From: Polyangiaceae bacterium
GTDB taxonomy: Bacteria; Myxococcota_A; Polyangia; Polyangiales; Polyangiaceae
DNA length: 64,000 nucleotides
NCBI GenBank assembly: GCA_019637265.1
Contig: JAHBVY010000006.1
Span: 62,001 to 126,000 of the forward strand
Direction of reading: 5' to 3'
Shown here: piece after piece, positions 3,630 through 19,474 of the stretch
Layout: every line of letters begins with the position of its first letter
Numbering within the stretch: position 1 is the first letter of the stretch
Position numbers and translations under genes: made by a program
The notes under the pieces: model-generated
Databases searched by the model: none
Seen by the model: the letters and a program-made list of their open reading frames with translations, nothing else
Told to the model about the DNA's origin: nothing

Positions 3630-5246
3630 CTACCAGCTGACCTTCTGATAAGTCTTGTGCTTGGTGAGGAAGTCGCCCTCCATGAACTGCTGCGGCGTGA
3701 GCTCGCGGATGCCGTCCTCACTCAGCTCGAGGATGCGATCGGCCACGGTGCTCACCATCTGGCGGTCGTGGGTCACGAACACGCAGCAGCCTTCGTAGGC
3801 GACCAGCGCGTCCGTCAGGGAGCGGATGGCCTCGAGGTCGAGGTGGTTGGTGGGCTCGTCCAACACCAGCACGTTGGGCTTCAGCAGCATCAGGCGCGCG
3901 AGCAAGAGCCGCACCGTCTCACCACCGCTCAACACGGAGGTGGGCTTGAAGGGCTCCTCCTTCTTGAACAGGAGGCGCCCGAACATCGCGCGGATCTGCT
4001 CTTCGTCCGCCTCCTGGTTCCAACCCCACAGCCACTTGTGCGCCGTGATGTCGCTCTTCTCGATCTGCTCGTGGTGGTCCTGCGGCATGTAGCCGACGTG
4101 CGTCTCGTAGCCCCACTCGGCGCTGCCCGCGTCGGGCTGGAGCTCGCCCACCAAGAGGCGCAGTAAGCTCGTCTTACCGATCCCGTTGGAGCCCACCACC
4201 GCGACCTTGTCCCCGCGGAACAGCCCGAAGTTCAGGTTGTCGCAGATCACCTTGTCGCCGAAGCGCTTGCTCAGGCCCTGCACCACCAGCGCCTGCTTGC
4301 CGCTGGGGCGCTTCATCTCGAAGCGCAGCCAGGGGCGCTCGATGTTGGAGCGCTTGAGGTCCGCCAGCGCCTGCTTCTCACGCTCGAGCGACTTCTCGCG
4401 GCTCTTCACCTGGCTCGCGCGGGAGCCCGCGCGGAAACGCTGCACGAACTCCTGGAGGTCTTGGATCTTCTTCTTCTTGGCTGAGTTCACCAGCTCGAGG
4501 CTGCTCCGCGCCTCGGCCTTCTGGTGCACCATGTCGTCGTAGTTCCCGGGGTAGACGATGATGGTCTCGTAGTCGATGTCCGCGATGCGGTCGCACACCT
4601 CGTTCAAGAAGTGGCGGTCGTGGCTGATGACGACCAGGACCCCGCGGTAATCTTTGAGGAAGCCCTCGAGCCAGCGGATGCTGGCGATGTCGAGGGCGTT
4701 GGTGGGCTCGTCCAGCAGGAGCGCCTCCGGGTCACCGAACAGCGCCTGGGCCAGGAGCACCCGCACCTTGTCGCCGCCGGTGAGGCTGCTCATCTTTTCT
4801 TCATGGTATTTCTCGGCGATGCCGAGGCCCTCGAGCAGCTCCGCGGCGTTCGACTCGGCGGTGTAGCCGTCCTCCTCGGCGATGGTCCCCTCCAGCTCGC
4901 CCAGGCGCATGCCATCCTCATCCGTCAGGGCGTCGCCCTTCTTGAGCAGCTCCTCCTTCTCGAACATCGCCTCCCACAGCGGGGCGTTGCCCATCAGCAC
5001 CACGTCGATCACGCGCTGCTCCTCGAAGCGGTAGTGATCTTGCCGCAAGATGCCGACCTTGCGCGGCTTCTGCACGCGGCCGCTCATCGGCTCCTGATCC
5101 CCCGTGATGATCTTCATGAAGGTGGACTTGCCGCTGCCGTTCGGCCCGGTCAGGCCGTAGCGCTCACCCTGGTTGAAGGTGACGTTGACGTTGTCGAACA
5201 GGATCTGTTCGCCAAAGTTCATGGAGACTTCGCTGACGGTGATCAT
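3630..5246 (-). CDS. ABC-F family ATPase, YbiT-like
   Basis: A 538-residue protein with two ABC domains and no membrane segments, matching the length and order of YbiT, a ribosome-associated ABC-F protein. Domain 1 has Walker A GPNGSGKS, signature SLTGGDK (unusual for LSGGQ) and LLLDEPTNALD. A charged linker holds the KKKKIQDLQEFVQRF arm. Domain 2 has GSNGIGKT, VLSGGE and LDEPTNHLD. The frame extends upstream to 5486, but ATG 5246 is preferred: AGAGG lies 8-9 nt upstream and the family N-terminus (MITVSEVSMNFGEQ) begins there. The role in translation is inferred from the family. Confidence 0.9.
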   Translation of the reverse strand: MITVSEVSMNFGEQILFDNVNVTFNQGERYGLTGPNGSGKSTFMKIITGDQEPMSGRVQKPRKVGILRQDHYRFEEQRVIDVVLMGNAPLWEAMFEKEELLKKGDALTDEDGMRLGELEGTIAEEDGYTAESNAAELLEGLGIAEKYHEEKMSSLTGGDKVRVLLAQALFGDPEALLLDEPTNALDIASIRWLEGFLKDYRGVLVVISHDRHFLNEVCDRIADIDYETIIVYPGNYDDMVHQKAEARSSLELVNSAKKKKIQDLQEFVQRFRAGSRASQVKSREKSLEREKQALADLKRSNIERPWLRFEMKRPSGKQALVVQGLSKRFGDKVICDNLNFGLFRGDKVAVVGSNGIGKTSLLRLLVGELQPDAGSAEWGYETHVGYMPQDHHEQIEKSDITAHKWLWGWNQEADEEQIRAMFGRLLFKKEEPFKPTSVLSGGETVRLLLARLMLLKPNVLVLDEPTNHLDLEAIRSLTDALVAYEGCCVFVTHDRQMVSTVADRILELSEDGIRELTPQQFMEGDFLTKHKTYQKVSW

Positions 5247-5474
5247 GAAAGGACCTCTCGCGCGGCTCGCCACGCATGATGCAGGCTCGGGCGCCGCGGG
5301 GCGGAACCATGACAGCCTTTGCCTGAGCTTCAAGGCGCTCGGCGCTTCGAGCGCTGCGTGGCTTCGAAGTGTCAGGGCGTCGGCGACCTCGGGGCGCAGG
5401 CTGGCTTCACAGCGCAGGCTGGCTTCGAAGCGCAGCGTGCTGACGCGTCTAGAGGGCCGTGATAAGGGGCGTTC

Positions 5475-7070
5475 ATGGGAAGTCAAGCGCTGCTTGGGCT
5501 GGTCACGGGGGTGATGGTGGTGGGGGCGCTGGCGGTGTCATGCACCGACGAGCCGGTCGCGCCCGAGGGTGTCGCGGGCTCGGGCGGTGTGGCCGGCGCT
5601 GCGGCCTCGGGCGGCGTGGCGGGCTCGGCGGGTGTTGGCGCGGCTGGCGCGGGCTCGGGCGGCGTGAGCGGCAGTGGCAACACGGGGGGCTCCGCGGGGA
5701 CGTCGCCGGTGCTCACCGTGGAGAGGCACCCGCTGCAGCCGATGGTGGTGGACGTGGTGGCGACGCTGCCCGACGCGGAGGCGGCGGAGCTGGTGCTCGA
5801 GGCGGACCCCGGCGTGCGCATCGAGCAGCTCGCGGAGACGGACCCTGGTTCACGTCGCTATCGCTTGCGCGGGCTCGCGCCAGGTGCGGCGCACGAGAGC
5901 GCGCTCGTGGTGGGGGAGCAGCGCTACCCGGTGAGCTTCACCACGCTCCCGCCGTTGCCCGGTTTTCAAGCCAGCTTCGACGTGGACGTGCGCGGCGAGC
6001 ACGCGCCGGATTACCGCATCTTCGACTACGCGAAGGCGCCCGCGGTGGGCGACGCGGGCATCTACGTCATCGACGCGGCGGGCCGCACGCGCTGGTTCTA
6101 CGCGCTCGTGGGCGCCGCCACCATCAACGACTTGGCCGCGGGGGTGAAGCTGCTCCCGAGCGGCGACGTGCTTTACTCCGACATCGGTAAAATCCGCGTG
6201 GTAAGTGAGCTGGGGGAGGTGAAGCTCGAGGTCACGGCGGCGCAGGTTGGGGCGCTCTTGTTTCACCACGACGTCATCCAGCTCCCGAACGGCAACTTCG
6301 TGGCCATCGCCCTGGAGCTGCGGGACATCTACTACCCGGCGGACGACGAGACGCACTACGTGGCGGGCGACGTGCTGGTGGAGCTCACGCCGGCGGGGGA
6401 GGTGGTGTGGACCTTCAAGGCGCTCGACAAGCTCGACCCGTTGCGCAAGCGCATGGACTTCGACGCGCCCTACTACCCATTTTTCCACCCGGATACAGGC
6501 AAGCAAGCGAAGGACTGGTCTCACGCCAACGGCGTGATCCACGATCCGTCGGATGACTCGCTGTGGCTCAGCCTGCGGCACCAGGATTGGCTGATCAAGA
6601 TCGACCGCGCGAGCGGCGAGGTGGTGTGGCGCCTGGGTGAAGAGGGCGACTTCGCGTTGGTCGGCGATCGCTGGTTTTATCACCCGCACTCCCCGGAGCT
6701 TCAGCCCGACGGCAGCCTGCTGCTCTACGACAACGGCGTCGGCAACCCGCATTCACCGCCAGAGGAGTGGCGCACTCGCCCCATTCGCCTGGCGCTCGAT
6801 ACCGCCGCGATGACCGCCACCATCGCCTGGCAGGACACCCAAGAGTCCTATGTCGCCCCCATCGCCGGCGACGTGGACCGCCTCTCCAACGGGAACTTCC
6901 TGGTGCTGGACACCGTGCTCCCGGACGATCCGTCAGCTTACCTGCCCGGTCGCCCGCGGCTCCGCGAAGTGAGCCCCATCACCGGCGAGTGGACCTGGGT
7001 GCTGCACGCCCCCAGCGGCCACTTCGCCTACCGCGCCATCACCGCCACGCGCCTCCCCGGCGAGCAGTGA
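5475..7070 (+). CDS. Arylsulfotransferase (ASST)-family lipoprotein
   Basis: A 531-residue predicted lipoprotein: the signal ends at LAVSC, followed by a roughly 50-residue Gly/Ala/Ser linker with repeated SGGVAG. The rest resembles the ASST beta-propeller: FDYAKAP, FHHDVIQLPNGNFV, a SHANGV...DWLIKIDRASGEVVW block and HPHSPELQPDGSLLLYDNG. Its His residues match the conserved region of bacterial arylsulfate sulfotransferases. It would act at the cell surface on phenolic sulfates, though some members are only structural homologues. AAGGGG lies just upstream of the ATG. Confidence 0.8.
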   Translation: MGSQALLGLVTGVMVVGALAVSCTDEPVAPEGVAGSGGVAGAAASGGVAGSAGVGAAGAGSGGVSGSGNTGGSAGTSPVLTVERHPLQPMVVDVVATLPDAEAAELVLEADPGVRIEQLAETDPGSRRYRLRGLAPGAAHESALVVGEQRYPVSFTTLPPLPGFQASFDVDVRGEHAPDYRIFDYAKAPAVGDAGIYVIDAAGRTRWFYALVGAATINDLAAGVKLLPSGDVLYSDIGKIRVVSELGEVKLEVTAAQVGALLFHHDVIQLPNGNFVAIALELRDIYYPADDETHYVAGDVLVELTPAGEVVWTFKALDKLDPLRKRMDFDAPYYPFFHPDTGKQAKDWSHANGVIHDPSDDSLWLSLRHQDWLIKIDRASGEVVWRLGEEGDFALVGDRWFYHPHSPELQPDGSLLLYDNGVGNPHSPPEEWRTRPIRLALDTAAMTATIAWQDTQESYVAPIAGDVDRLSNGNFLVLDTVLPDDPSAYLPGRPRLREVSPITGEWTWVLHAPSGHFAYRAITATRLPGEQ

Positions 7071-7127: not shown

Positions 7128-7160
7128 CGCGCGGCGCTCGCAGCGTCACGCGCGGTTTTT
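7128..7160 (+). terminator. Probable Rho-independent terminator after the ASST gene
   Basis: CGCGCG pairs with CGCGCG, an inner CGCT pairs with AGCG, and GGTTTTT follows. It is about 60 nt past the ASST stop. The T-run is the first part of a copy of the dispersed repeat. Confidence 0.5.
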
Positions 7161-7203
7161 CTTGGGGGTTGGTAGAGCCGCGCGGCGCCACAGCCCGCTA
7201 CAG
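7154..7203 (+). repeat. Dispersed-repeat copy and left direct repeat of the RM island
   Basis: GGTTTTTCTTGGGGGTTGG is followed by a 33-nt block (7171-7203, beginning GGTAGAGCCGCGCGGCGCCA). The block recurs at 17111-17143 with 29 of 33 identities in the same orientation, so the RM island sits between two direct repeats. A more diverged relative is at 47781-47827. Confidence 0.7.
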
Positions 7204-7233
7204 GCGCTGGTGCCCAGCGCTGCGCGGCGCGGT

Positions 7234-7337
7234 GAGGCGCAGGTGTGCGCTGCGAGGCGCTGCGAGGCGCGGGGAGGCGCAGGTGTGCGCTGCAAAGCGC
7301 GGTGTGGCGCATGCGCGCTGCGAGGCGCTGCGAGGCT
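7234..7337. repeat. GC-rich direct repeats upstream of hsdM
   Basis: GAGGCGCAGGTGTGCGCTGC occurs at 7234 and 7274 (period 40), interleaved with five copies of TGCGAGGCGC or close variants. The gap 7071-7407 holds these repeats, a terminator and a dispersed-repeat copy; no gene is visible. The hsdM promoter must lie here, but I cannot place it. Confidence 0.7.
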
Positions 7338-7407
7338 CACGGCGCCGGGCGGTTACGTAGGACGGCGCCGGATGGTTCCGCTAGACTCGCTGCAAAGGAC
7401 CACGGCC

Positions 7408-9201
7408 ATGACGATTGATATGAATGAGCCCAAGAAGCGCGGGCGGCCGCGGAAGGTGACTGGCGCGGGTGTGGCGCCGGTTGGTGCGACTGCTGCGGGT
7501 GCGCCGAAGCGGCGGGGGCGGCCGCCCAAGGCTGCTGCGGTGGAGGTGGGGGCACAGCACGCGGGTGCGGTGCCGTCCAACCCCCAAAACCCTTCGAGGA
7601 AGGGGCGGGGTAAGAGCACTTCGGATGCGGTGGTCGGCTTTGAAGAGAAGCTTTGGCAGATGGCCGACAAGCTCCGCAACAACATGGATGCGGCGGAGTA
7701 CAAGCACGTAGTTTTAGGGCTCATCTTCCTGAAGTACATCTCGGACGCGTTCGAGGAGAAGCGCGCGGAGCTGCTGGAGGAGGTGAGCTCGGGTGCCGAT
7801 CCGGAGGACCCGGATGAGTACCGCGCGGACAACATCTTCTGGGTGCCGAAGGAGGCGCGTTGGCCCCACCTCCAGGGGCGCGCGAAGCTGGCGACGATTG
7901 GCAAGCTGGTGGATGACGCGATGGTCGCCATCGAGGCGCAGAACCCCTCGCTCAAGGGCGTGCTGCCGAAGGACTACGGCCGCCCGGCGCTCGACAAGAC
8001 GCGGCTCGGCGAGCTGATCGATTTGGTTGGCACGATTGGCCTGGGCGACAAGGAGAACCGCTCACGCGACGTGCTCGGCCGGGTTTATGAATACTTCCTG
8101 ACTAAATTCGCCGCCGCGGAGGGCAAGAACGGCGGGCAGTTTTATACGCCGCGCGGCGTGGTGCGGGTGCTGGTGGAGATGCTCGCGCCGTACAAGGGCC
8201 GCGTGTTCGACCCGGCGTGTGGCTCCGGCGGCATGTTCATCTCCAGCGAGAAGTTCGTGGAGGCGCACGGCGGCCGCGTGGGTGACATCAGCATTTACGG
8301 CCAGGAGAGCAACCACACCACCTGGCGGCTGGCGAAGCTGAACCTGGCTATTCGCGGCATCGACGCCAACATCGTCCAGGGTGACACGTTCCACGCGGAC
8401 GGCCATAAAGACCTGAAGGCTGACTACGTGCTCGCCAACCCGCCGTTCAACGACAGCGACTGGGGCCAGGCGCGGCTGAAGGAGGACGTGCGCTGGAAGT
8501 ACGGCACGCCGCCGGCGGGCAACGCGAACTTCGCCTGGGTGCAGCACTTCCTCCACCACCTGGCGCCGCGCGGCATCGCGGGTTTTGTGCTGGCGAACGG
8601 CAGCATGAGCTCGCAGCAATCCGGGGAGGGGGAGATCCGCAAGGCGCTCGTGGAGGCGGACCTCGTCGACTGCATGGTGGCGCTGCCTGGTCAGCTCTTC
8701 TACTCGACGCAGATCCCAGTGTGCCTGTGGTTCTTGGCGCGCGACAAAAAGAACGGCCTGGGCGGTCGCGGCAAGAAGATGCGAAACCGCCAGCGGGAGA
8801 CGCTGTTCATCGACGCTCGCAAGTTAGGCACCCTGGTTGACCGAGTGCACCGCGAGCTCTCGGAGGAGGACATCGCGCGCATCGCGGACACGTATCACCT
8901 GTGGCGCGGCGACTGGTCGCCGGATGATTCACGTCAGGTAGGGGCGGCCCCCCGTGGCCGCCCGATCTACGAGGACACGCCGGGCTTCTGCTACTCGGCG
9001 ACGACGGAGGAGATCGCCTCGCACCAGTACGTGCTCACCCCGGGCCGCTACGTGGGCGCCGAGGAGGTGGAGGACGACGGTGAGCCGTTCGACGAGAAGA
9101 TGAAGCGTCTGGTCGCTACGCTGGAGCAGCAGTTCGCGGAGGGCGCGCGCCTGGAGAAGGAGATCCGGAAGAACCTGCGAGGGCTGGGGTATGGCGGCTA
9201 A
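7408..9201 (+). CDS. hsdM: Type I RM DNA methyltransferase subunit with AT-hook N-terminus
   Basis: A 597-residue N6-adenine methyltransferase of a type I RM system. The HsdM helical N-domain starts near residue 76 ([17 protein letters not shown]). Motif [10 protein letters not shown] is at about 267-275 and the catalytic NPPF at 344-347. Residues 1-75 are unusual: two AT-hook-like motifs (KKRGRPRK about 9-16; KRRGRPPK about 34-41) and VPSNPQNP, encoded by a dispersed-repeat copy. ATG 7408 has AAAGGA 8 nt upstream; the frame is open to 7162 but without an RBS. It heads the island and overlaps the next gene by 11 nt. Confidence 0.93.
7570..7593. repeat. Dispersed-repeat copy inside hsdM
   Basis: GTGCCGTCCAACCCCCAAAA matches the dispersed intergenic repeat and is translated in frame as VPSNPQNP within the HsdM N-terminal extension. 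It is inverted relative to the copy at 7154. Confidence 0.7.
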
Positions 9202-9778
9202 GAAGACGACCGGTGGGAGCGAACGTTTAAGATCGCAAATTGTGACCTCAAGATCGACGGGCGCGGCGGACGGGGCGACCGTAGCGCTGCCCGTCGAGCA
9301 GGCGATCGTGAGGCTGCGCGGGCAACGGGTGATGCTGGATGAGGCGCTGGCGGAGCTGTACGGCGTGCCCGTCAAGCGCCTCAATGAACAGGTGAAGCGC
9401 AACATCGAGCGCTTCCCCGAGGACTTCATGTTCCAGCTCACGGAGGAGGAGGTCGAGATCTTGAGGTCGCAAATTGCGACCTCAAGATCTGAGCACGGCG
9501 GTCGGCGCTACCTCCCCTACGCCTTCACTGAGCAGGGTGTGGCCATGCTCTCCAGCGTGCTGCGGAGCGAGCGCGCGGTGCAGGTGAACATCGAGATCAT
9601 GCGCACCTTCGTGAGGCTGCGCGGCATGCTAGCCGAGCACGCGGAGCTGGCGCGCCAGCTCGAGCGGCTCGAAAAGAAGTACGACGCGCAGTTCCGCGTG
9701 GTGTTCGACGCCATCCGTGAGCTGATGACACCCACGGCGAAGGCGAAGCGGCCGATCGACTTCCGGAGGAAGGCGTGA
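9191..9778 (+). CDS. ORF6N-domain DNA-binding protein
   Basis: A 195-residue protein. From about residue 35 it carries an ORF6N domain ([58 protein letters not shown]), related to phage KilA-N/antirepressor proteins. A coiled-coil-prone C-terminus follows ([18 protein letters not shown]). It often travels with type I RM loci, where its role is unknown; regulation of the locus is only a guess. The N-terminus contains [10 protein letters not shown], a degenerate copy of the internal [10 protein letters not shown], because the DNA carries a duplicated palindrome. It overlaps hsdM by 11 nt and hsdS by 4 nt (GTGA). Confidence 0.88.
9226..9255. repeat. Degenerate copy of a palindrome in the ORF6N gene
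   Basis: 30 nt, 26 identical to 9460-9489. It encodes the N-terminal [10 protein letters not shown] stretch, upstream of the ORF6N domain. Confidence 0.75.
9456..9490. repeat. Perfect 17-bp-arm palindrome in the ORF6N gene
   Basis: AGATCTTGAGGTCGCAA, one central A, then its exact reverse complement. It lies in coding sequence (residues [11 protein letters not shown]) and could form a long hairpin in RNA or a dyad protein-binding site in DNA. Confidence 0.9.
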
Positions 9779-11076
9779 GGGGGGTGGAGAGGGAGGCCCG
9801 GCGGAACCTACGGGCTCGGGGTGATGAGACCACTCTCGGCGCACTACTTGCCGTGGAGGGTGGGAGCATCAAGACCGGTCCGTTCGGCACAGTCCTGAAG
9901 GCGCACGAATACACGACCTCTGGCGTGCCGCTGATCTCCGTCGGAGAGATCCGACATGGATATTTCCGTATTCATGAGAAGACCCCCCGTATTTCAGAGG
10001 AGGTTTCGAGCCGACTTCCTGACTACGTGCTTCGTGCCGGCGATATCGTTTTTGGTCGGAAAGGGGCCGTAGACCGCTCCGCGCGCGTTTCACAAGAGCA
10101 AGACGGCTGGTTCCTCGGTTCCGATGGTATTCGACTTCGCCTATCTGAAGCAACCGATTCTCGCTTCATGGCGTACCAGCTTCAGAGTGATCTGGTTCGC
10201 CGCTGGATTCTTCAGCACGCGACCGGAACAACGATGGCGTCGCTCAATCAAGGAGTTATTGAGCGTATTCCTGTGCTAATTCCTCCCCTCCCCGAGCAAC
10301 GCGCCATCGCGCACATCCTTGGTACCCTTGATGACAAGATTGAGCTGAACCGCAAGATGAACGAGACGCTCGAGGCGATGGCGCGGGCGCTGTTCAAGTC
10401 GTGGTTCGTCGACTTCGACCCCGTGCGCGAAAAGAGCCAAGGCCGCGCCCCCACCGGCATGGACGCCGAGACCGCGAAGCTGTTCCCCAGTGAGTTCGTG
10501 GAGTCGGAGCTGGGGGAGATCCCGAAGGGGTGGGAGCATCGAACTGTTGGGGAACTCTCAGTCCTTTCCGGCGGCAAGCAGCTCGAACGTGAGTTCATCG
10601 TCGAGGATGGACTTATTCCGGTGTTCGGTGGTGCCGGCGTTATGGGCTTCACCATGGGACACAACGCGGACGGTTTCGTGATTTCAGTAGGGCGCGTCGG
10701 GGCGTACTGCGGTCAGTTCTTCGCGCATCGCGGGAAGGCGTGGATCAACAACAACGCCTCCTTGATTCGACCGAACGATGCTCATTTTTCCGAGTGGATG
10801 TTTCTCGCGTTGAAGCATGCCGATATAGATGTAATCAAGAAGGGCGCTGCTCAGCCTTTTGTCTCCAATGGCGACATTGCGAACCTCAAGCTGCTGTGGC
10901 CTGGCGCACCGACGATTGCGGCTTTCTCGCGCCAGTTTGTGCCTTTGTTAGACGCCAAGGACGCAAACGACGCCCAGTCGAAAACCCTTGCTCGCACCCG
11001 CGACACCCTCCTCCCAAGCCTCCTCTCTGGCGAACTTTCTGTGGCCGCTGCGGTGAAGGAGCTTGTGGTCGCATGA
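9775..11076 (+). CDS. hsdS: Type I RM specificity subunit
   Basis: A 433-residue HsdS with the usual two target-recognition halves. TRD1 is about residues 1-175 and ends in the helical spacer [20 protein letters not shown]...[16 protein letters not shown]2 is about 250-395 and ends in a second helix finishing with [15 protein letters not shown]. It sets which DNA motif HsdM and HsdR recognise. Both TRDs are visibly more AT-rich than their surroundings, as expected for exchanged recognition domains. The GTG start overlaps the ORF6N stop and the stop overlaps the next ATG (ATGA). It is complete. Confidence 0.93.
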
Positions 11077-12377
11077 GTACGGCTTACCTCTCCATTCGAA
11101 CTCGAAACGCGGTTCGGGATGTCCTTGCGCAAAGGGGTCCTCTCGACGTGTCGGACCTCTGCTCCGAATGTGAAATTAGGAGGCAGCTAGAAACTATCTA
11201 TCCAAGGATAGATGACGAACGAACGCGGTTGGCCGCAGAATACCTTGCGTCGCTCAATCTCAACATGAAGAGGGATGCCGAACGCTTGCTCGCTCTTGTC
11301 GCGCGCCTCGCGGAGGAACCGGTCAGAGGCAGGCATTTCTCTCAACTTCAGCAAGCCCTTGAGCGCGATGGATTCATGCTTGAGTCGTCCAGCCTCGTCG
11401 CCAAGTCTCCCTTTGCGCTGGTGGTCTTTCCCAAGTACGCACCAGTAGATTCAGTCACTGGCGCGACTCGAGAGAGGATCTGTAGCGATCTTCAAAAGAA
11501 TAGCCTTGCGGTTGAGGGGAGGTTCACCTTCCAGAGATTATTGGACAGATTTATTGCTACACCGGTCACGCATGGCTCACTTGGTGTCGGGTTGATGCAA
11601 GCTTACGTGAATTCCGGTCAGTCGAGTCTTAAAAGCTATCTGTCCGGGTTCGGTGGGCGCCCCATTGATTGGCCTGATGGGGCTTTCTTGAGGATCTTGG
11701 TCGAGTCCCTTCATCCGGATGTCCGAAGCTTGCATGAATCGAACAAGCTCCTTCGCCTATATAACTCACAGCTGGAATCTGATGGGTGGGAGATCGTAAA
11801 GGCGGAGCGCGTTGAGGGGGCGGACCCGTTTGTCTTTCGACGGCGCTCGATTGGAGGAGTGACATTCCCAGATTCGACTCCCGCCTCAGACATCCTTTCG
11901 GGGGAGTACGTTCGCGATCTGGTGGGCAAGTGCGACTCCCGTCTTACCTCGGGAGACTTGGAAGGAACTATCACCACCGCGCGCACCATGCTGGAGGCCG
12001 TGCTCCGTGAGCTGGAGATTCAGCTTGCGGGTGCGCCGGGCGACTACAAGGGCGATCTGCCAAGGCAGTTTAAGGCTGTAGTCAAGCAGCTCCGCATCGA
12101 CGACGAGCGCCGAGACCTCGACGACAACTTCAAGCAGGTGGCTCGTGGTCTCGTGCAGGTGGTCAACGGCCTTGCGCCTATCCGCAACAAGATGAGCGAC
12201 GGGCACGCGCGAGAACGAAAGCCTGAGATACACGAGGCTCGGGTGGTCTTGAATGCGTCCAAGACTGTCGCGGCGTTCCTGGTAGACTGCTACTTGACGC
12301 AGAAGGAGCAAGGAGAGCTTAGTACGCCGACCCCCTCGCACAATGACGACGAGAGAGCTTCGGGAGGCTCTACATGA
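11073..12377 (+). CDS. Abortive-infection family protein (Abi_C domain)
   Basis: A 434-residue protein inserted between hsdS and the DUF1016 gene. The C-terminal 130 residues fit the Abi_C domain of AbiJ-like defence proteins: ITTARTMLEAVLREL, then QVARGLVQVVNGLAPIRNKM with the RN-x-H signature (RNK about 371-373, His about 379). Residues 1-300 are not recognised. Base composition is lower in GC and codon use less biased than the neighbours, indicating horizontal transfer. ATG 11073 overlaps the hsdS stop, and the gene ends in an ATGA overlap with the hsdS-tail remnant. Phage-triggered growth arrest is inferred from the family. Confidence 0.8.
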   Translation: MSTAYLSIRTRNAVRDVLAQRGPLDVSDLCSECEIRRQLETIYPRIDDERTRLAAEYLASLNLNMKRDAERLLALVARLAEEPVRGRHFSQLQQALERDGFMLESSSLVAKSPFALVVFPKYAPVDSVTGATRERICSDLQKNSLAVEGRFTFQRLLDRFIATPVTHGSLGVGLMQAYVNSGQSSLKSYLSGFGGRPIDWPDGAFLRILVESLHPDVRSLHESNKLLRLYNSQLESDGWEIVKAERVEGADPFVFRRRSIGGVTFPDSTPASDILSGEYVRDLVGKCDSRLTSGDLEGTITTARTMLEAVLRELEIQLAGAPGDYKGDLPRQFKAVVKQLRIDDERRDLDDNFKQVARGLVQVVNGLAPIRNKMSDGHARERKPEIHEARVVLNASKTVAAFLVDCYLTQKEQGELSTPTPSHNDDERASGGST

Positions 12378-12493
12378 GTCCAGCGATCGTAGCAGCGCGC
12401 CCTCGCCGCTATAGTGCCATCCTCTTGGAGTCACTGCTCTCCGGTGAGCTCAACGTCCGCGCCGCCTCGCGCGAAGTGGAGGCCGCGCTGTGA
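12374..12493 (+). pseudogene. Stray HsdS C-terminal tail (39 codons)
   Basis: The 39-codon frame MSPAIVAARPRRYSAILLES, continuing LLSGELNVRAA, matches the end of the intact HsdS ([15 protein letters not shown]). It overlaps the Abi stop by ATGA and the next GTG by GTGA. It is best read as the 3' end of an older hsdS left after the new hsdS 3' end plus the Abi gene were introduced. Whether it is translated as a small protein is open. Confidence 0.65.
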
Positions 12494-13710
12494 GCGTCAC
12501 GAAGAAGCCTACCAAGAAGACCGCGTTGACCACGCGCGCGCCGCCGCGCTCACGTGGCCGCGTTCGCCCTGAGGGCGCGGAGTTCCCGCTCGCTCCGCTG
12601 AAGACGACGCTGCCAAGGGACTACGCCGAGGTGCTCGCCGAGCTGAAGTCGCGCATCTCCCTGGCCCAGCGGCGCGCGCTTCGCGCTGCGGCTCATGAAT
12701 TGACGGGCCTCTACTGGTACGTTGGACGTACCATCGTCGAACGCCAACGCGAATCCACCTGGGGAGACTCGGTCATCGAGCGGCTGGCGCACGATCTGCG
12801 AGCCGCATTCCCCAAGGTGGAGGGCTTCTCGCCGCGCAACATCTGGCGCATGCGGGCCTTCTTCCTCGCGTGGAGCGCCGAGCCGCGAAAACTGACACCC
12901 GCCGTGTCAGAGAGCCCGGCGCGCCGAAAACTGACACGCGCCGTGTCAGAAACAGAGAGCGAGATCCCAGCCGCCGTGGCGTCGCTGCCGTGGAGCCACA
13001 ACATCATCCTCGTCCAGCAGGTCAAGGAACCTGATGTTCGCCGTTGGTACGCCGAGCAGGCGTCGCGCGAAGGCTGGACCCGCGACGAGCTGCGAGCGCA
13101 AATCAAGAAGCAGACCCACGCGCGGCAGGGCAAGGCCGTCAGTAACTTCTCGCGGGTGCTCCCTGCAGCGCAGTCAGCGCTCGCGCAGCAGGCGCTGAAA
13201 GATCCGTACCTGTTCGACTTCCTGACCGTGGGCAAGGAGGCCCACGAGCGCGCGCTGGAACGCGAGCTGATCGCCCACGTGCGCGAGTTCCTGCTCGAGC
13301 TCGGCGCGGGGTTCGCCTTCATCGGCAGCCAGGTGAAGCTCGTCGTCGAAGAGCGCGACTACTTCGTCGACCTGCTCTTTTACCATCTCAAGCTCCGCGC
13401 CCACGTCGTGGTGGAGCTGAAGGCGACGGCCTTCAAGCCCGAGCACGTAGGGCAGATGAACTTCTACCTGGCCGCTGTCGACGACCTGCTGAAACACGAG
13501 CTAGATCAGCCGAGCATCGGGCTCTTGCTCTGCAAGTCGAAGGAGCGAATGCGGGTCGAGTACGCGCTGCGCGGCGTCGCCACCCCCATTGGGGTGGCCG
13601 AGTACGAGACGAAGCTCTTAGAGTCGCTCCCAAAGGAGCTAGAGGGCGTGCTCCCCACCGTCGAGCAGATTGAGGCGGAGTTTGCGCCGAAGAAGCGGGG
13701 GAAGCGGTGA
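12490..13710 (+). CDS. DUF1016 (YhcG-type) PD-(D/E)xK nuclease-family protein
   Basis: A 406-residue protein. A basic N-terminal tail is followed by the DUF1016 N-domain (LKSRISLAQRRALRAAAHEL, YWYVGRTIVERQ, FSPRNIWRMRAFF), a linker, then LPWSHNIILVQQVKEPDVRRWY. The C-domain is PD-(D/E)xK-like: FVDLLFYH (Asp about 294) and VVELKA (ELK 309-311). Family members accompany RM loci; their job there is unsettled. The linker carries a 13-residue tandem repeat (RKLTPAVSESPAR / RKLTRAVSETESE). It is coupled at both ends by GTGA overlaps. Confidence 0.88.
   Translation: MSVTKKPTKKTALTTRAPPRSRGRVRPEGAEFPLAPLKTTLPRDYAEVLAELKSRISLAQRRALRAAAHELTGLYWYVGRTIVERQRESTWGDSVIERLAHDLRAAFPKVEGFSPRNIWRMRAFFLAWSAEPRKLTPAVSESPARRKLTRAVSETESEIPAAVASLPWSHNIILVQQVKEPDVRRWYAEQASREGWTRDELRAQIKKQTHARQGKAVSNFSRVLPAAQSALAQQALKDPYLFDFLTVGKEAHERALERELIAHVREFLLELGAGFAFIGSQVKLVVEERDYFVDLLFYHLKLRAHVVVELKATAFKPEHVGQMNFYLAAVDDLLKHELDQPSIGLLLCKSKERMRVEYALRGVATPIGVAEYETKLLESLPKELEGVLPTVEQIEAEFAPKKRGKR
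12887..12964. repeat. In-frame 39-bp tandem repeat with internal palindromes
   Basis: Two copies with a 39-nt period. Each contains CTGACAC, a 5-nt loop and GTGTCAG (12892-12910 and 12931-12949). It encodes the RKLT(P/R)AVSE repeat in the DUF1016 linker. Confidence 0.85.
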
Positions 13711-13912
13711 GCGCGCCGAAAGCTCCCATCACGCCGAGCGATCTCGTCCTCTACCGCTCGTCATCGCCGTCGGCTATCGCGTCAACAGCGATGTGTTTCG
13801 CGTTCGCCAGGACCGCGAGCTCGTGTCGGACTTCGATCGCATCGTCGAGGGGGCGAAGCGGCTGGGTGAGGGCAAGGCGAAGAAGCGTCCGCGGAAGGAA
13901 AAGAAGCGATGA
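13707..13912 (+). pseudogene. RhuM-like gene remnant with internal deletion
   Basis: The reading starts at GTG 13707 as MSAPKAPITPSDLVLYR, like the start of RhuM-family proteins (SDIVLYxTEDG). In another frame it continues as LVIAVGYRVNSDVFRVRQDR, like the RhuM LDVIIAVGYRVxS segment, and ends as an Arg/Lys-rich tail stopping at 13912. The roughly 100 residues that normally separate the two blocks are missing and the frame shifts, so it is a deletion product. Its stop still overlaps the hsdR ATG (ATGA). Confidence 0.6.
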
Positions 13913-16900
13913 CCGTCTTCTCTGAGTCCACCGTCGAGCAGGCGGCGCTGGGGTGGTTCGAGGAGCTGGGCTACGCCGTGATCCATGGCCCTACCATCGG
14001 GCCTGGTGAGCCGGATGAAGAGCGCAGCTCTTACGCACAGGTGGTCCTCGAACGCCGCCTGCGCGAAGCGCTCGTGCGCCTGAATCCAGATGTCTCTCGC
14101 GAGGGCCTCGATGAGGCCTTCCGTAAGCTCACGCGCATCGCGTCACCTCAGCTCATCGACGCCAACCATGAGCTGCACCACTACCTGGTGAATGGTGTCA
14201 GCGTGGAGTACCTGCGCGCGGACGGCAGCATTGGTTACGATCCGGTGAGAGCCGTCGACTTCGACGAGCCGGACAACAACGACTGGCTCGTCGTAAACCA
14301 GCTCACCGTCACCGAAGGCGGCCACTACCGGCGCCCGGATGGGGTCGTCTTCCTGAACGGCCTGCCCATCGCGGTCATCGAGCTGAAGAACGCGGCGAGC
14401 GAGAGCGCGACGCTGGGGGGCGCCTTCCAACAGCTCCAGACCTACAAGCGAGAGCTGCCGTCGCTGTTCGTCTTCAACGAGCTGCTCATCGTCAGCGATG
14501 GGCTCGAGGCGCGCCTCGGCACGCTGTCGTCGAATAAGGAGCGCTTCTTGCCGTGGCGCACCGTGGAGGGAGAGGCGCGCGCCCCCAAGACGGTGTCAGA
14601 GCTCGAGGTGCTGATCCGGGGCGTCTTCGACCGGGCGCGGCTGCTCGACTTGGTGCGTTACTTCATCGTGTTCGAGGACGATGGAGACACCGTCACCAAG
14701 AAGGTGGCGGGCTACCACCAGTTCCACGCGGTTCACGTCGCGCTCGCGGCGACGCTGCGCGCAGCGGGCGTGCAGCGCAGCGAAAGCGCGAGCGGCAAAG
14801 TGGGCGATCGCCGCGTTGGGGTCGTGTGGCACACCCAGGGCTCCGGCAAGAGCCTCACCATGGCGTTCTACGCTGGGCGCGTGGTGCAGCACCCCGCGAT
14901 GCAGAACCCCACGCTCATCGTGCTGACGGATCGTAACGACCTCGATGAGCAGCTGTTCGGCACCTTCGCGCGCTGTCAGGGCATTTTACGTCAGACACCG
15001 GAGCAAGCGAGGGATCGCGGACACCTGCGTGATCTCTTGAAGGTGGCTTCGGGAGGCGTCGTGTTCACCACGATTCAGAAGTTCATGCCCGAGACGCGGG
15101 GAGACAGCTTCCCCCTGCTGTCCGAGCGAAAGAACATCGTCGTCATCGCTGACGAGGCGCACCGCAGCCAATACGACTTCATCGATGGCTTCGCGCGGCA
15201 CCTGCGCGATGCGCTCCCGAACGCCTCCTTCATCGGCTTCACGGGCACGCCGATCGACGCCGCCGACAAGAGCACGCGCTCCGTGTTCGGTGATTACGTC
15301 AGTGTCTATGATATTCAGCGCGCGGTGGAGGACGGCGCCACGGTGCCCATCTACTACGAGAGCCGCCTTGCCAAGCTCGAGCTGAGCACCGAAGAGGCGC
15401 CGCGCCTCGACGAGGCCTTCGATGAGCTGTTCGAGGTCGATGAGGCCGAGGAGACAGGCGAAGCTGAGCCTGCTTCGCTGGAGGAGCGAGAGAAGCTGAA
15501 GACCCGGTGGTCGGCGCTGGAGGTGCTGGTGGGCACCGAGCGGCGCCTCCAGCTCATCGCTGAAGATCTCATCCAACACTTCGAAGCGCGCCTCGAGGTC
15601 ATGGATGGCAAGGCGATGCTCGTCTGCATGAGCCGCCGCATCTGCGTCCAGCTCTACGAGGCGATAGTCAGGCTTCGTCCCGACTGGCACCACGAGCGAG
15701 ATGACCAAGGCGCCATCAAGATCGTGATGACGGGCTCGGCGTCGGACCCAGTCGAGTGGCAGCCGCACATCCGCAGCAAGCAGCGGCGCGAGCTGCTCGC
15801 GAAGCGCTTCAAAGATCCGAGCGATCCGCTCAGGCTCGTCATCGTCCGCGACATGTGGCTCACCGGCTTCGACGCGCCGTGCATGCACACCATGTACCTC
15901 GACAAGCCGATGCGCGGGCACGGGCTGATGCAAGCCATCGCGCGGGTGAACCGCGTGTTTCGTGACAAGCCAGGCGGCCTCGTCGTCGACTACCTGGGGC
16001 TCGCCGATCAGCTGCGGCAGGCGCTCCACGTCTACACGGAGAGCGGCGGCCAAGGCGAGACCGCGCTCGACCAAGCGGAGGCCGTGGCGCTGATGCTCGA
16101 GCGCTACGAGGTGTGTCGCGATCTATTTGGTCCGTTCATTGGACCAGGCGGGGAGCGCTCCCCTGGCTTCGACTTCAGCGCTTGGACTAGCGGCTCCCCC
16201 GCGGCAAAGCTCTCCCTCTTGCCCGCGGCGCAGGAGCACGTGCTCGCGCAAGAGCAGGGCAAGGAGCGGCTGCTTCAGGTCGTGACCGAGCTGTCGAAGG
16301 CGTTCGCGCTCGCGGTGCCTCATGACGAAGCGATCCGTGTTCGCGATGACGTCGGCTTCTTCCAGGCCGTGCGCGCCGCCATCGCCAAGACGCAAGGTGG
16401 CGGCCGCGGGGGAGCGAGCGGGGATCTCGATCACGCCATCCGGCAGATAGTCAGCCGGGCGATCGTCAGCGATCGGGTGATCGACGTGTTCAAGGCGGCG
16501 GGACTCTCGAAGCCCGACATCTCCATCCTCTCCGATCAGTTCCTGGCCGACGTGCGCGGCATGCAGCACAAGAACCTCGCCGTGGAGCTGCTGAAGAAGC
16601 TCCTGAATGACGAGTTGAAGGCGCGAAGGAAGCACAACCTCGTGCAGGCGCGCTCCTTCGCCGAGCTGCTCGAGAGCTCGGTGCGGCGCTACCAGAGCCG
16701 CGCCATCGAGGCCGCGCAGGTCATCGAGGAGCTGATCGAGCTCGCTAAAGACATGCGTCAGGCGCACGCGCGCGGTGAGGAGCTAGGGCTCACGACTGAC
16801 GAGCTAGCCTTCTACGACGCGCTCGAGGTAAGCGACAGCGCCGTGAAAGTGCTCGGCGACGACACGCTCCGAAACATCGCTCGCGAGCTGGTCTCAACCG

Positions 16901-17076
16901 TGAAACAGAACGCCACCATCGACTGGACCATCAAGGAGACGGTGCGCGCTAAGCTGCGCGTCATCGTCAAGCGCATCCTCCGTAAACACGGCTACCCACC
17001 TGACAAACAGGAAGCCGCGACGACCACCGTGCTGCAGCAAGCCGAGCTCCTGAGCGAGCTCTGGACCGCCGCCTGA
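13909..17076 (+). CDS. hsdR: Type I RM restriction (motor and nuclease) subunit
   Basis: A 1,055-residue HsdR. The N-terminal PD-(D/E)xK nuclease has [20 protein letters not shown] (ELK 158-160). The SF2 translocase has Walker A TQGSGKS (about 309-315), DEAH (415-418), [10 protein letters not shown] and a helicase C-part with [16 protein letters not shown] and [10 protein letters not shown]. The C-terminal third is helical and binds the methyltransferase complex. It appears intact. It is the last gene of the island and overlaps the rhuM remnant. The N-domain architecture ([14 protein letters not shown]) resembles the type Ic-like clade, though I cannot assign the subtype firmly. Confidence 0.95.
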
Positions 17077-17110
17077 GCGCCGCACGTTCATCTGGGGTGA
17101 GGGAGGGGGT

Positions 17111-17143
17111 GGTAGCGCCGCGTGGCGCCACCGCCCGCTGCAG
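17111..17143 (+). repeat. Right direct repeat of the RM island
   Basis: 33 nt beginning GGTAGCGCCGCGTGGCGCCA, 29 of 33 identical to 7171-7203 and preceded by a related G-run. It lies 35 nt after the hsdR stop and just before the convergent hutF end. Confidence 0.7.
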
Positions 17144-17150
17144 TGAGCCC

Positions 17151-18680
17151 TCACAGCGCTTCAAACAACTCTCCGATCTCCGCCGCGTAGCGTTTCCGCG
17201 CGGCATCGTGCGCCACGTGGCGGCCCTCCAGGACGCGCCACACGCCGCCGACCATCACTTGGCGCACGGGGGAGGCCCCGGGCGCGAACACCCAGCTGTC
17301 CAGCGCGCGGTCTTCGGTGCGCCCCAGGAGGCTTGGGTGCGCGCCGTCGAGCACCACCAGGTCCGCGTGGCAACCCGGCGCGAGGCGCCCCAACGCCATG
17401 CCGCTGCTCATCGCCATCCCGCCGCCCATCGTCTCAGCATGGCTGCCCATCGCCGCGCCGCTGCTCATTGCCATCCCACCGCCTAGCGCCTTCGCCCCAC
17501 CGCGCAGCGCCTCGCTGTACAGCCGCGCGCCGGTTCCGCGCGGCGGCGATGAGCGATCGGAGACGGCGCGCGCCCGCGTCGTGAGGCGCTGCCCATACTC
17601 CAAGAGCCGCAGCTCCTCGGCGGGACACACGCACACCTGACTGTCACTGCCGATCCCGAAGCTGCCGCCGAGGTCGAGCAGCTTCGGCAGCGGGAACAGC
17701 CCGTCGCCGAGGTTCGCCTCCGTGGTCGGGCACAGGCCGAGGGTGGCGCCCGCTCGCACCACGCCGCGGAGCTCCTCCTCGGTGACGTGGGTCGCGTGCA
17801 CCAGGCACCAACGCGCGTCCACCTCGTGCTCGCTGAGCAAAAGCTCTACCGGGCGCGCGCCGTGATGCGCCAGCGCCGCCTCCACCTCCGCCACCTGCTC
17901 CGCGACGTGAATATGTACTGGAACCTGATGATCGCTGGCGGCCGATGCGAGCACCGCCAAGATCTCCCGGCGCCCCTCGAGCGGCGCCGCGCGCAGGCTG
18001 TGCAGCGCGACCCCCAAGCTGACGAGCGGCCCGACCTCCGATTCGAGCGCCTGCAGCAGCCGCAAGTAGCGCTCGGGGCGATTGTAGAAGCGCCGCTGCT
18101 CGGGCGCGATCGGCGCCGCGCCGAAGCCCGAGGTCTCGTAATAGACAGGCAACAGGACGAGTCGCATCCCCGCGCCGCGCGCCGCCTCTGCCACGTGTCG
18201 CCCGAGCTCCGCCAAGTCGGCGTAGGGCTCACCCCCTGGGCCGTGATGCAGGTAGTGGAACTCGGCGGTGCTGGTGTAGCCGTGCTCCAGGAGCTCCACG
18301 TACAAGAGCTCGGCGATGGCGCTCACCTGCGAGGGTGAGAGCCGCTCGACGAACCGATACATCAGCTCACGCCAGCTCCAGAAGCTGTCCTGCCCCGCAG
18401 GCGAAGCGCGCTCCGTGAGCCCCGCCAGTGCGCGTTGGAACGCGTGCGAGTGGAGGTTGGGCATCCCCGGCGCGGTGATGCCCGGCAGCCACGTCGCCGC
18501 TTCATCGCCTGGCGGCACCTCGCGTCGCGCGCTCTCATCGCCTGGACGCCGCTCCCCCAGCGCCTCACCACCCAGCGCGCCCACCTCCGTCACCACGCCG
18601 GCCTCCACTCGGAGCCGCCCGGGTCGATGCCAGCGCTGCCCGTCGAACAGCTGCTCGCAGTGGTAGACGCCGGCGCTCAC
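17151..18680 (-). CDS. hutF: Formimidoylglutamate deiminase
   Basis: A 509-residue amidohydrolase converting N-formimidoyl-L-glutamate to N-formyl-L-glutamate and ammonia in histidine degradation. Family motifs: GMPNLHSHAFQRALAGL (zinc His pair), FWSWRELMYRF, TSTAEFHYLHH, VHIHVAEQ, ARWCLVHATH and GIGSDSQV. GTG 18680 gives a GTGA overlap with the hutG stop, preferred over the upstream ATG at 18725. An odd Met/Gly-rich insertion (GGGMAMSSG twice) sits just before LAPGCHADLVVLD; it comes from a 57-nt direct repeat at 17401-17483. Confidence 0.92.
   Translation of the reverse strand: MSAGVYHCEQLFDGQRWHRPGRLRVEAGVVTEVGALGGEALGERRPGDESARREVPPGDEAATWLPGITAPGMPNLHSHAFQRALAGLTERASPAGQDSFWSWRELMYRFVERLSPSQVSAIAELLYVELLEHGYTSTAEFHYLHHGPGGEPYADLAELGRHVAEAARGAGMRLVLLPVYYETSGFGAAPIAPEQRRFYNRPERYLRLLQALESEVGPLVSLGVALHSLRAAPLEGRREILAVLASAASDHQVPVHIHVAEQVAEVEAALAHHGARPVELLLSEHEVDARWCLVHATHVTEEELRGVVRAGATLGLCPTTEANLGDGLFPLPKLLDLGGSFGIGSDSQVCVCPAEELRLLEYGQRLTTRARAVSDRSSPPRGTGARLYSEALRGGAKALGGGMAMSSGAAMGSHAETMGGGMAMSSGMALGRLAPGCHADLVVLDGAHPSLLGRTEDRALDSWVFAPGASPVRQVMVGGVWRVLEGRHVAHDAARKRYAAEIGELFEAL
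17401..17483. repeat. Direct repeat inside hutF
   Basis: CCGCTGCTCATCGCCATCCC plus six more bases recurs 57 nt later with 2 mismatches in 26. It encodes the two GGGMAMSSG units. Confidence 0.8.
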
Positions 18681-19474
18681 GCGGGCCGCCACGTGGAGAG
18701 CGCCTGAGCCAGCTCTCGAAGGCACTTCGTGAGCCGCTCCGCGCGCGCCGGCTCGAAGCGATAAGGCGGCGCCTCATCCATGTAGCAAGCCTGCGCCATC
18801 TCGAGCTGCAGCGCGTGCACCCCGCGGCTCGGCTCACCGTAGCGCCGCGTGATGTAGCCGCCGGTGAAGCGCCCGTTCACCACGTAGCTCATCCCAGACG
18901 CCGCGAGCACCGCCGCCGCGCGCGCCGCGAGCTCATCGTCAGCGCTCCTGCCATGGTAGGTGCCCAGGTTCAGGTCAGGTAACCTGCCTTCGAAGAAGCG
19001 CGGTACCTGAGCGCGAATCGAGTGACCATCGAGCAGCACCGCGAAGCCGTGCGCCGCGTGGAGCCTGGCTAGCTCCGCGCGCAGCGCCGCGTGGTAAGGC
19101 ATGAAGTAGTGCTCCACGCGCCCCAAGATTTCCTGGGGGTTCGGCGTGGCGCCTTCGCGGTAGATGCGCTCGTCGGCGAAGGTGGTCAGCGGGCAGAGCT
19201 CCGTGGTGCGCTGCCCGGGGTACAGCGAGGTGCCCTCGGGGGCGCGGTTCAAGTCGATGACGTAGCGGCTCAGGCGCGCGCGGAGCACACTGGCCCCCAA
19301 ACCCGCTGCGAAGGCGTACAGGCGGTCCACGTGCCAGTCCGTGTCGGGCAGCGCGAGCGCGGCCTCCGTCAGCCGCTCGCCGAAGCCCGGGGGCAGCTCG
19401 GTGCCAGAGTGAGGTAAGCTGACGAGGAGCGGCGCCTCTCCCCGCGTCAGCTCGAACGTCGCCTGCGGAGGCAT
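18677..19474 (-). CDS. hutG: N-formylglutamate deformylase
   Basis: A 265-residue N-formylglutamate amidohydrolase, which releases formate and glutamate from the HutF product. Motifs: VSLPHSGTELP, DTDWHVDRLY, VIDLNRAPEGTSLYPGQRTT, GFAVLLDGHSI, NLGTYHGRSAD, GGYITRRYG and ALQLEMAQ. It is the upstream member of a two-gene operon with a GTGA overlap into hutF. The HutF/HutG pair implies the five-step route from histidine; hutH and hutU are not in the window. Confidence 0.93.
   Translation of the reverse strand: MPPQATFELTRGEAPLLVSLPHSGTELPPGFGERLTEAALALPDTDWHVDRLYAFAAGLGASVLRARLSRYVIDLNRAPEGTSLYPGQRTTELCPLTTFADERIYREGATPNPQEILGRVEHYFMPYHAALRAELARLHAAHGFAVLLDGHSIRAQVPRFFEGRLPDLNLGTYHGRSADDELAARAAAVLAASGMSYVVNGRFTGGYITRRYGEPSRGVHALQLEMAQACYMDEAPPYRFEPARAERLTKCLRELAQALSTWRPA

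Follow-up and report, generated by a model that had tools for sequence, protein, structure and literature searches.

A type I restriction-modification operon with a changing set of defence genes, and palindromes that accessory proteins may read in their own genes

The hsd loci of Campylobacter jejuni contain extra open reading frames (ORFs), either R-linked (rlo) or M-linked (mlo), with GmrSD (RloF) among them (PMC5183652, PMC4619093, both citing Miller et al. 2005). According to the C. jejuni passages of these articles, the extra ORFs separate hsdM from hsdS and hsdS from hsdR in a type I restriction-modification (RM) system, as they do in the locus described here, a type I RM operon in a 64,000-nt stretch of DNA (hereafter the window) of a Polyangiaceae bacterium (contig JAHBVY010000006.1, positions 62,001 to 126,000). 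The RRDM island of enteropathogenic Escherichia coli (EPEC) consists, in the sections devoted to it, of RptR, a type I RM system, DarTG2 and M48; defence genes are likewise embedded between hsdS and hsdR, at a site that the authors name a potential recombination hotspot (PMC12255303). That island is controlled by a dedicated regulator, the 79-aa repressor RptR, which the same sections describe as acting at repeats in the island promoter, whereas in the window the putative sites lie inside the accessory genes themselves.

A type I system with defence cargo is an already known kind, and the window holds a further member of it: as in rlo/mlo-type loci, genes other than hsd occupy the hsdM-hsdS and hsdS-hsdR spaces, and they vary between relatives. 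The genes differ from those of Campylobacter, and two of them, encoding an ORF6N-domain protein and a DUF1016/YhcG protein, contain palindromes, a feature that goes unmentioned in the C. jejuni passages. A search of the open-access literature, which misses most subscription papers and preprints, showed, among the papers listed, no report of intragenic palindromes in ORF6N, RhuM or DUF1016 genes. We consider it probable that the locus is a type I operon with exchangeable slots, in which accessory proteins read a palindrome in their own gene. In autorepressors with intragenic operators, a site inside a gene is read by the product of that gene; what we describe differs in concerning three protein families and in having a site that drifts along with the recognition helix. 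The PADLOC profiles PDC-S02 (DUF1016; window protein 1.7e-140) and PDC-S05 (ORF6N and RhuM; window ORF6N 2e-59) match these families as defence candidates only, and self-binding is no part of them.

Palindromes inside ORF6N, RhuM and DUF1016 genes

The window contains the following palindromes, of which a repeat scan located the main ORF6N one and the two in DUF1016:

9456..9490, unstranded: ORF6N main palindrome, 17-bp perfect arms and 1-nt centre, within ORF6N codons 89-100
9229..9249, unstranded: start-proximal imperfect copy of the ORF6N palindrome, codons 13-20, 234 bp upstream of the main palindrome
12892..12910, unstranded: DUF1016 palindrome copy 1, CTGACAC/GTGTCAG, codons 135-141, in a low-confidence loop
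12931..12949, unstranded: DUF1016 palindrome copy 2, 8-bp arms, codons 148-154, 39 bp downstream of copy 1

The DUF1016 palindromes sit in a 39-nt tandem repeat containing CTGACAC/GTGTCAG twice. In the AlphaFold2 models (mean predicted local distance difference test score, pLDDT, of 69 for ORF6N and 71 for DUF1016), ORF6N has a helix at residues 61-70, and the palindrome-coded residues 89-100 span the end of another helix (85-94) and the start of a low-confidence loop (96-103). The DUF1016 model has a helix at 115-129 and carries both palindromes in a low-confidence loop (132-156).

Exact copies of the sites are confined, in this genome, to their own genes. With up to three mismatches, the ORF6N site was found in the 5.7-Mb genome in its own gene only (main and start copies), and a reversed pattern, used as a control, matched 4 times per strand by chance. 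Perfect copies of the DUF1016 site number exactly two and belong to its own gene; three other places differ from it by 2 mismatches. One could think of selfish repeats inserted and tolerated in coding regions, and protein-coding palindromes of this kind exist, namely the Rickettsia palindromic elements (named in PMC4316617). The present palindromes differ in being undispersed, with the ORF6N site confined to its own gene and the DUF1016 site lacking any other exact copy, and the genome-wide site scan speaks strongly against dispersed repeats. Their constant position and codon phase, their changing sequence and their coupling to a helix (see below) would be unexpected of insertions, which makes this explanation improbable in the extreme.

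Homologs carry palindromes of differing sequence at the same position of the gene. In the non-redundant sets, 43 of 73 ORF6N, 28 of 45 RhuM and 40 of 114 DUF1016 genes have a best perfect palindrome whose arms measure 10 bp or more, and the second-best palindrome reaches this length in 0/73, 0/45 and 2/114. The average arm in synonymous shuffles is 5.7 bp (ORF6N), 6.3 bp (RhuM) and 6.2 bp (DUF1016), and the best palindrome of the gene beats all 20 of its shuffles in 44/73, 27/45 and 45/114 genes; in another shuffle test, 12 of 44 ORF6N and 24 of 73 DUF1016 genes had one or more of their 20-40 shuffles reach 10 bp. The synonymous shuffles rule out chance or codon usage as the origin of the palindromes. 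When arms are at least 8 bp long, the centre keeps a fixed codon phase in 39/47 ORF6N, 31/32 RhuM and 67/72 DUF1016 genes. Control genes almost never have a palindrome (HsdS 0/35, HsdM 1/35, Abi_C 0/12). A scan for further families turned up arms of at least 12 bp in 53 of 3219 ORFs, most of which were, on inspection, shadow frames of the same genes.

The two arms covary. In the 42 of 45 RhuM genes that can be aligned at this place, with or without a palindrome, pairs 3-7 obey Watson-Crick rules in 40-42 genes; 2-4 kinds of pair occur, and G:T is not among them. The paired fraction is 0.868 in RhuM (maximum of 500 shuffles, 0.611) and 0.728 in ORF6N (0.569). Mismatches in the arms are as rarely G:T as A:C (A:C and G:T counts of 7 and 7 in ORF6N, 4 and 3 in RhuM, 5 and 4 in DUF1016). 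Because the two kinds are equally rare, the symmetry, as read from these alignments, is that of duplex DNA read by a protein dimer and not that of an RNA stem. A palindrome in a transcript can of course fold, and the sites might be mRNA hairpins regulating translation or decay. Yet G:T is not tolerated over A:C, many palindromes have 1-nt centres, and the coupling is to a presumed DNA-reading helix, all of which leave hairpins very unlikely. A search of Rfam gave no match.

Additional copies of a gene's own site are frequent nearby. We counted 24 near 36 ORF6N genes (in 13 of them; 0.8 expected), 14 of which lie 230-390 bp upstream of the main site, i.e., near the gene start, and 41 near 52 DUF1016 genes (0.8 expected), of which 33 are in tandem at 36-60 bp. 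In one locus (L119, G112:C98), two tandem ORF6N genes have one site family, and each main site has another five copies within 1.1 kb.

The feature extends to new loci, to plasmids and to E. coli K-12. Arms of at least 10 bp were found in 13 of 26 non-redundant new RhuM genes, where place and phase were each as expected in 12, and in 7 of 27 new DUF1016 genes, where the place was as expected in 7 and the phase in 6. DUF1016 is present on many plasmids (468 records), and 6 of 13 plasmid genes have a palindrome of at least 8 bp at the expected phase, one of them (L413) near the gene start. A viral scan for the family found no locus with a single DUF1016 protein and 48 loci with the DUF1016 alignment. 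The yhcG gene of E. coli K-12 MG1655 (L407, 5828-6955), for which we know of no reported function, has three tandem palindromes at 6136-6237 (record positions 3368135-3368236) with cores GCAGAC/CCAGAC; one has 15-bp arms, one 7-bp arms, and the third, seen by reading of the sequence, is imperfect. The 301 bp around them have at least a partial match in 3937 of 5426 complete E. coli genomes and are covered to at least 80% in 2829.

Coupling of half-sites to presumed recognition helices

We measured the covariation of protein columns with the half-site in genes with arms of at least 7 bp, and excluded the columns that surround the palindrome. Of 105 columns in ORF6N (45 genes), the three that rank highest correspond to E66, R63 and K62 of the window protein, within the modelled helix 61-70. 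In RhuM (33 genes, 252 columns), the six best columns all fall within the stretch KDVRTINE, the presumed recognition helix of this family. In the NIWRM subfamily of DUF1016 (32 of 67 genes with arms of at least 7 bp), only one of 300 columns is conspicuous, that of residue 116 in the window protein, with z 8.4 against 2.6 for the runner-up.

The pairings between residues and bases are regular. In ORF6N, E or D goes with CGCA (15/15), QA with TCAC (23/23) and KA with TTCCA (2/2); the association is looser for R with GCCA (6/8) and for QQ (TCACA twice, TTGCA once). In RhuM, NE/SE goes with CGG (15/15), SR with GCA (7/7), TQ with AAG (8/8) and VR/VK with TCC (11/11), and K is mixed (TCC twice, GCA once). 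In DUF1016, R goes with CTG[A/C]C (15/15), Q with CTCTC (3/3) and S/A/G with CTCGC (9/10, plus one partial case). Read by eye, the six plasmid DUF1016 genes have R before N with GC (4/4) and A with CC (2/2) at the matching bases. The half-sites of the window agree with these tables (LNEQV with TCGCA in ORF6N, SPRN with CTGAC in DUF1016), the window genes being members of the sets from which the tables were read. This coupling reads like a partial residue-to-base code of a recognition helix.

We predicted the half-site of each gene from the nearest helix among proteins less than 50% identical elsewhere, and compared the result with 60 control blocks; 15 new RhuM genes and no new ORF6N genes took part. 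The nearest helix scored 0.713 in RhuM (control mean 0.410, maximum 0.484) and 0.831 in ORF6N (0.699, maximum 0.757), and 0.782 in ORF6N at less than 40% identity (22 genes). Because the helix outpredicts the control blocks in both families, shared ancestry could not easily give such tables of helix and half-site.

The palindrome-encoded stretch might also touch the recognition helix within the protein, so that both covary. The two are close in sequence, and ORF6N residues 89-94 belong to a helix in the model. Such contacts would leave unexplained the DNA symmetry between the arms and the extra copies of the site elsewhere, and the DUF1016 stretch is modelled as a low-confidence loop; we give this explanation very little weight.

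The operon and its probably exchangeable slots

The genes of the operon are:

7408..9201, plus strand: hsdM, type I DNA methyltransferase (Pfam HsdM_N and N6_Mtase)
9191..9778, plus strand: ORF6N-domain protein, 195 aa, presumed DNA-binding (Pfam ORF6N)
9775..11076, plus strand: hsdS, specificity subunit, full length, 433 aa (Pfam Methylase_S)
11073..12377, plus strand: AbiJ-like Abi_C protein (Pfam AbiJ_NTD3, partial, and Abi_C)
12374..12493, plus strand: 39-codon ORF, C-terminal tail of a lost hsdS (homology to HsdS C-termini)
12490..13710, plus strand: DUF1016/YhcG protein (DUF1016_N, presumed DNA-reading, and YhcG_C PD-(D/E)xK nuclease domain)
13707..13912, plus strand: gutted rhuM remnant (N-terminal stub and C-terminal tail in different frames; helix-turn-helix (HTH) and palindrome region lost)
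13909..17076, plus strand: hsdR, type I restriction subunit (HSDR_N, SWI2/SNF2 and T1RH-like C-terminus)

A first-pass annotation of the window had given the order hsdM, ORF6N, hsdS, Abi_C, hsdS tail, DUF1016, rhuM-like remnant, hsdR, which we confirm gene by gene. It had also described nearly every junction as a 4-nt GTGA/ATGA overlap, and this is so for six of seven (in order GTGA, ATGA, ATGA, GTGA, GTGA, ATGA), with hsdM and ORF6N overlapping by 11 nt. We placed the start of hsdM at ATG 7408 rather than at 7162 by judgement. Overlaps of 4 nt are common in related operons, including plasmid relatives. The type I system has hsdM, hsdS and hsdR, each with the expected domains, in this one operon (contig C18 of G000, a host genome that we judge to be myxobacteria-like). 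The "four extra genes" reduce to three intact ones (ORF6N, Abi_C, DUF1016), the remainder being remnants.

The hsdS-tail ORF is, by its sequence, homologous to HsdS: it scores 72 against the HsdS C-terminus of a second, related system of the same genome (its best match) and 58 against the adjacent hsdS, and 200 shuffles gave a mean best score of 35.3 (maximum 60). The rhuM remnant matches the PDC-S05 models weakly (1.5e-5) and has no match in a Pfam scan, hence no Virulence_RhuM domain; what is left of it, by eye, is a stub of the N-terminus, the piece VGYRVNS and the tail of the C-terminus, and the HTH region is gone. The Abi_C domain scores 58 bits against a curated cut-off of 24. Likeness to AbiJ/Abi_C proteins lies in this domain, in the partial AbiJ_NTD3 and in RNKMSDGH, which we take to be an RNx5H motif of the HEPN type and which recurs in variant form in the 5 relatives examined; the window protein is set apart from AbiJ/Abi_C proteins by an N-terminal part that is mostly unassigned. 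The first-pass annotation had recognised a PD-(D/E)xK-like protein, in line with the DUF1016_N and YhcG_C domains found here. The DUF1016 model resembles an archaeal repair endonuclease (E 2.7e-5) and EndoMS (9.5e-5), suggesting a PD-(D/E)xK fold like that of EndoMS-type nucleases. A sequence search of the Protein Data Bank (PDB) gave no match for Abi_C and chance-level matches only for DUF1016, and a PDB fold search with the ORF6N model gave nothing at E 0.001 or better.

When 377 genomes of the phylum were searched with HsdR, 52 had a match at E 1e-100 or better; six relatives with 79-84% identical HsdR and upstream sequence present form a close set. One is the second type I system of the same genome (L134 1-7768, G000:C17, HsdR 84% identical), whose slot holds an AAA_13 gene, presumably PrrC/RloC-like, and a Schlafen AlbA_2 gene. 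L135 has two consecutive, differing Abi_C genes after hsdS, and L136 the same pair (first gene matched by visible similarity, second by score) and an intact RhuM. The others hold an ORF with a sub-threshold Y1_Tnp match and a RhuM cut short (L137), DUF3644 and, by eye, a 56-codon rhuM-like tail (L139), or Mrr_cat, RhuM and a second, partial rhuM copy (L140). No two slots are identical, although L135 and L136 have the Abi_C pair in common. The Abi_C protein of the window is 73-74% identical to those of L135/L136 over about 157 C-terminal residues; it is single and longer, with an extended N-terminal part, where theirs are paired. In more distant relatives, the slots contain GmrSD (RloF; one relative, L143), AbiEii-type AAA, SIR2_2, Abi_2, KAP, DUF3644, DUF6978 with DUF1828, or M78 with DUF4411. 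Among 28 slot ORFs scanned, 6 had no Pfam match.

Pairs of neighbours recur. Abi_C directly follows hsdS in L135, L136, L152, L153 and L172; DUF1016 lies between hsdS and hsdR in L038, in L154 and L157 with another ORF between, and on four plasmids (Polaromonas, Pseudomonas); and rhuM or a piece of it precedes hsdR in the window, L136, L137, L140 and L158, and by eye only in L139. The decay of rhuM before hsdR appears to be repeated, with a shortened gene in L137, apparently only a tail in L139 and a partial copy in L140, as in the window. The check proposed with the first-pass annotation, a search for the same order in related genomes, failed to find it: the whole order occurs in 0 of 39 regions in one scan and 0 of 34 in another, several regions being cut by contig ends. 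Hence the earlier idea of a layered defence unit stands as to defence cargo in one type I RM operon with recurring neighbour pairs, and falls as to a fixed set. Since no two slots of the six close relatives match, the gene set looks assembled, a cargo slot that is turning over, and this turnover rules out a layered defence machine of fixed composition.

As part of the explanation that we consider probable, the hsdM-hsdS and hsdS-hsdR spaces would serve as slots in which defence genes are exchanged, and the rhuM that once preceded hsdR would have decayed. The hsdS tail may be the stump of an older hsdS that was replaced by a unit of hsdS and Abi_C. An ordinary type I RM locus with randomly gathered cargo of the rlo/mlo kind, whose accessory genes have no role in the control of the operon, has close to an even chance in our view. 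The different slot contents of close relatives, the many ORF6N and DUF1016 loci without an RM gene among the neighbours scanned, and the remnants, which betray turnover, all agree with it. It leaves the palindromes and their coupling to the helix unexplained, though self-regulation of each gene alone would be compatible with it.

Directly 5' of hsdM (7204-7347) are GC-rich near-tandem repeats with a period of about 10 nt, GCGCTGCGAG-like, which could be part of the control region of the operon. The flanks (3630-7070 and 17151-19474) hold apparently ordinary chromosomal genes, which we named by eye from their translations as ABC-F-like ATPase, arylsulfotransferase-like, hutF-like and hutG-like.

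Proposed autogenous control by accessory proteins

The core of our explanation is seen in the sequences: the palindromes keep their place and phase, their arms covary symmetrically, they are coupled to the presumed recognition helix, and this genome has no further exact copies of the sites. Together these strongly imply that ORF6N, RhuM and DUF1016 proteins each bind their own gene as a dimer, and we infer autogenous control as the outcome. The recognition helix would read the palindrome just after the stretch that encodes it, inside its own coding sequence, and a dimer bound there would limit transcription of the gene by acting as a roadblock or by looping. ORF6N bound to its site, between hsdM and hsdS, would lower hsdS, Abi_C and hsdR, which lie downstream, relative to hsdM; bound DUF1016 would take a place between Abi_C and hsdR. 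Both proteins could hold down the restriction and abortive-infection genes relative to the methyltransferase. Alternatively, each gene may limit only itself, or its product may recognise other copies of the gene.

Several observations weigh against self-binding and autogenous control. Many homologs have arms shorter than 10 bp (30/73 ORF6N, 17/45 RhuM, 74/114 DUF1016), only 5 of 13 plasmid DUF1016 genes have the palindrome at the expected place, and none of the three plasmid ORF6N genes fetched has one at the expected phase. No second site was found near any of 23 RhuM genes, and the tandem copies of DUF1016 could also be explained as protein repeats. The coupling was measured solely on genes that have a palindrome, and, given the relatedness of the sequences, neither columns nor shuffles count as independent trials. 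In mixed DUF1016 sets no column stood out, with residue 116 among those tested, and in the whole family the helix predicted the half-site with a score of 0.585, compared with 0.530 for the controls (maximum 0.621) and 0.624 for the rest of the protein. At less than 40% identity, the one RhuM gene available was wrongly predicted (0.167). As to the operon, scans that hardly fit this phylum found no promoter-like site and 12 terminator-like sites (6.3 +- 2.4 expected), two of them on the operon strand (8566 and 11659).

The sites might serve not to control expression but to recognise other copies of the gene, in exclusion, homing or recombination, with the DUF1016 nuclease addressed to its own gene. 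The EndoMS-like fold predicted for DUF1016, the lack of other exact copies of its site in the genome and the presence of the family on so many plasmids would fit such a role. Cutting one's own gene is self-harm unless controlled, however, RhuM and ORF6N have the same feature with no nuclease domain in Pfam scans, and start-proximal copies suit an operator; we regard this role as unlikely. A broader possibility, which goes further than simple autorepression and which we put forward tentatively, is that the three families have converged on one type of mobile defence gene, a "self-addressed" one. The address would travel with the gene and co-drift with the helix, and the product would recognise any copy of its own gene, for instance with the DUF1016 nuclease acting on, excluding or recombining rivals on incoming elements.

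On this reading, three functionally obscure families that are listed as defence candidates gain a predicted activity, namely that each binds a predictable palindrome in its own gene. The yhcG gene of E. coli K-12, with its three tandem sites, makes this idea directly testable. Self-binding also suggests how accessory genes may stay self-controlled after landing in any operon, and such genes could set the balance of the modification, restriction and abortive-infection genes downstream.

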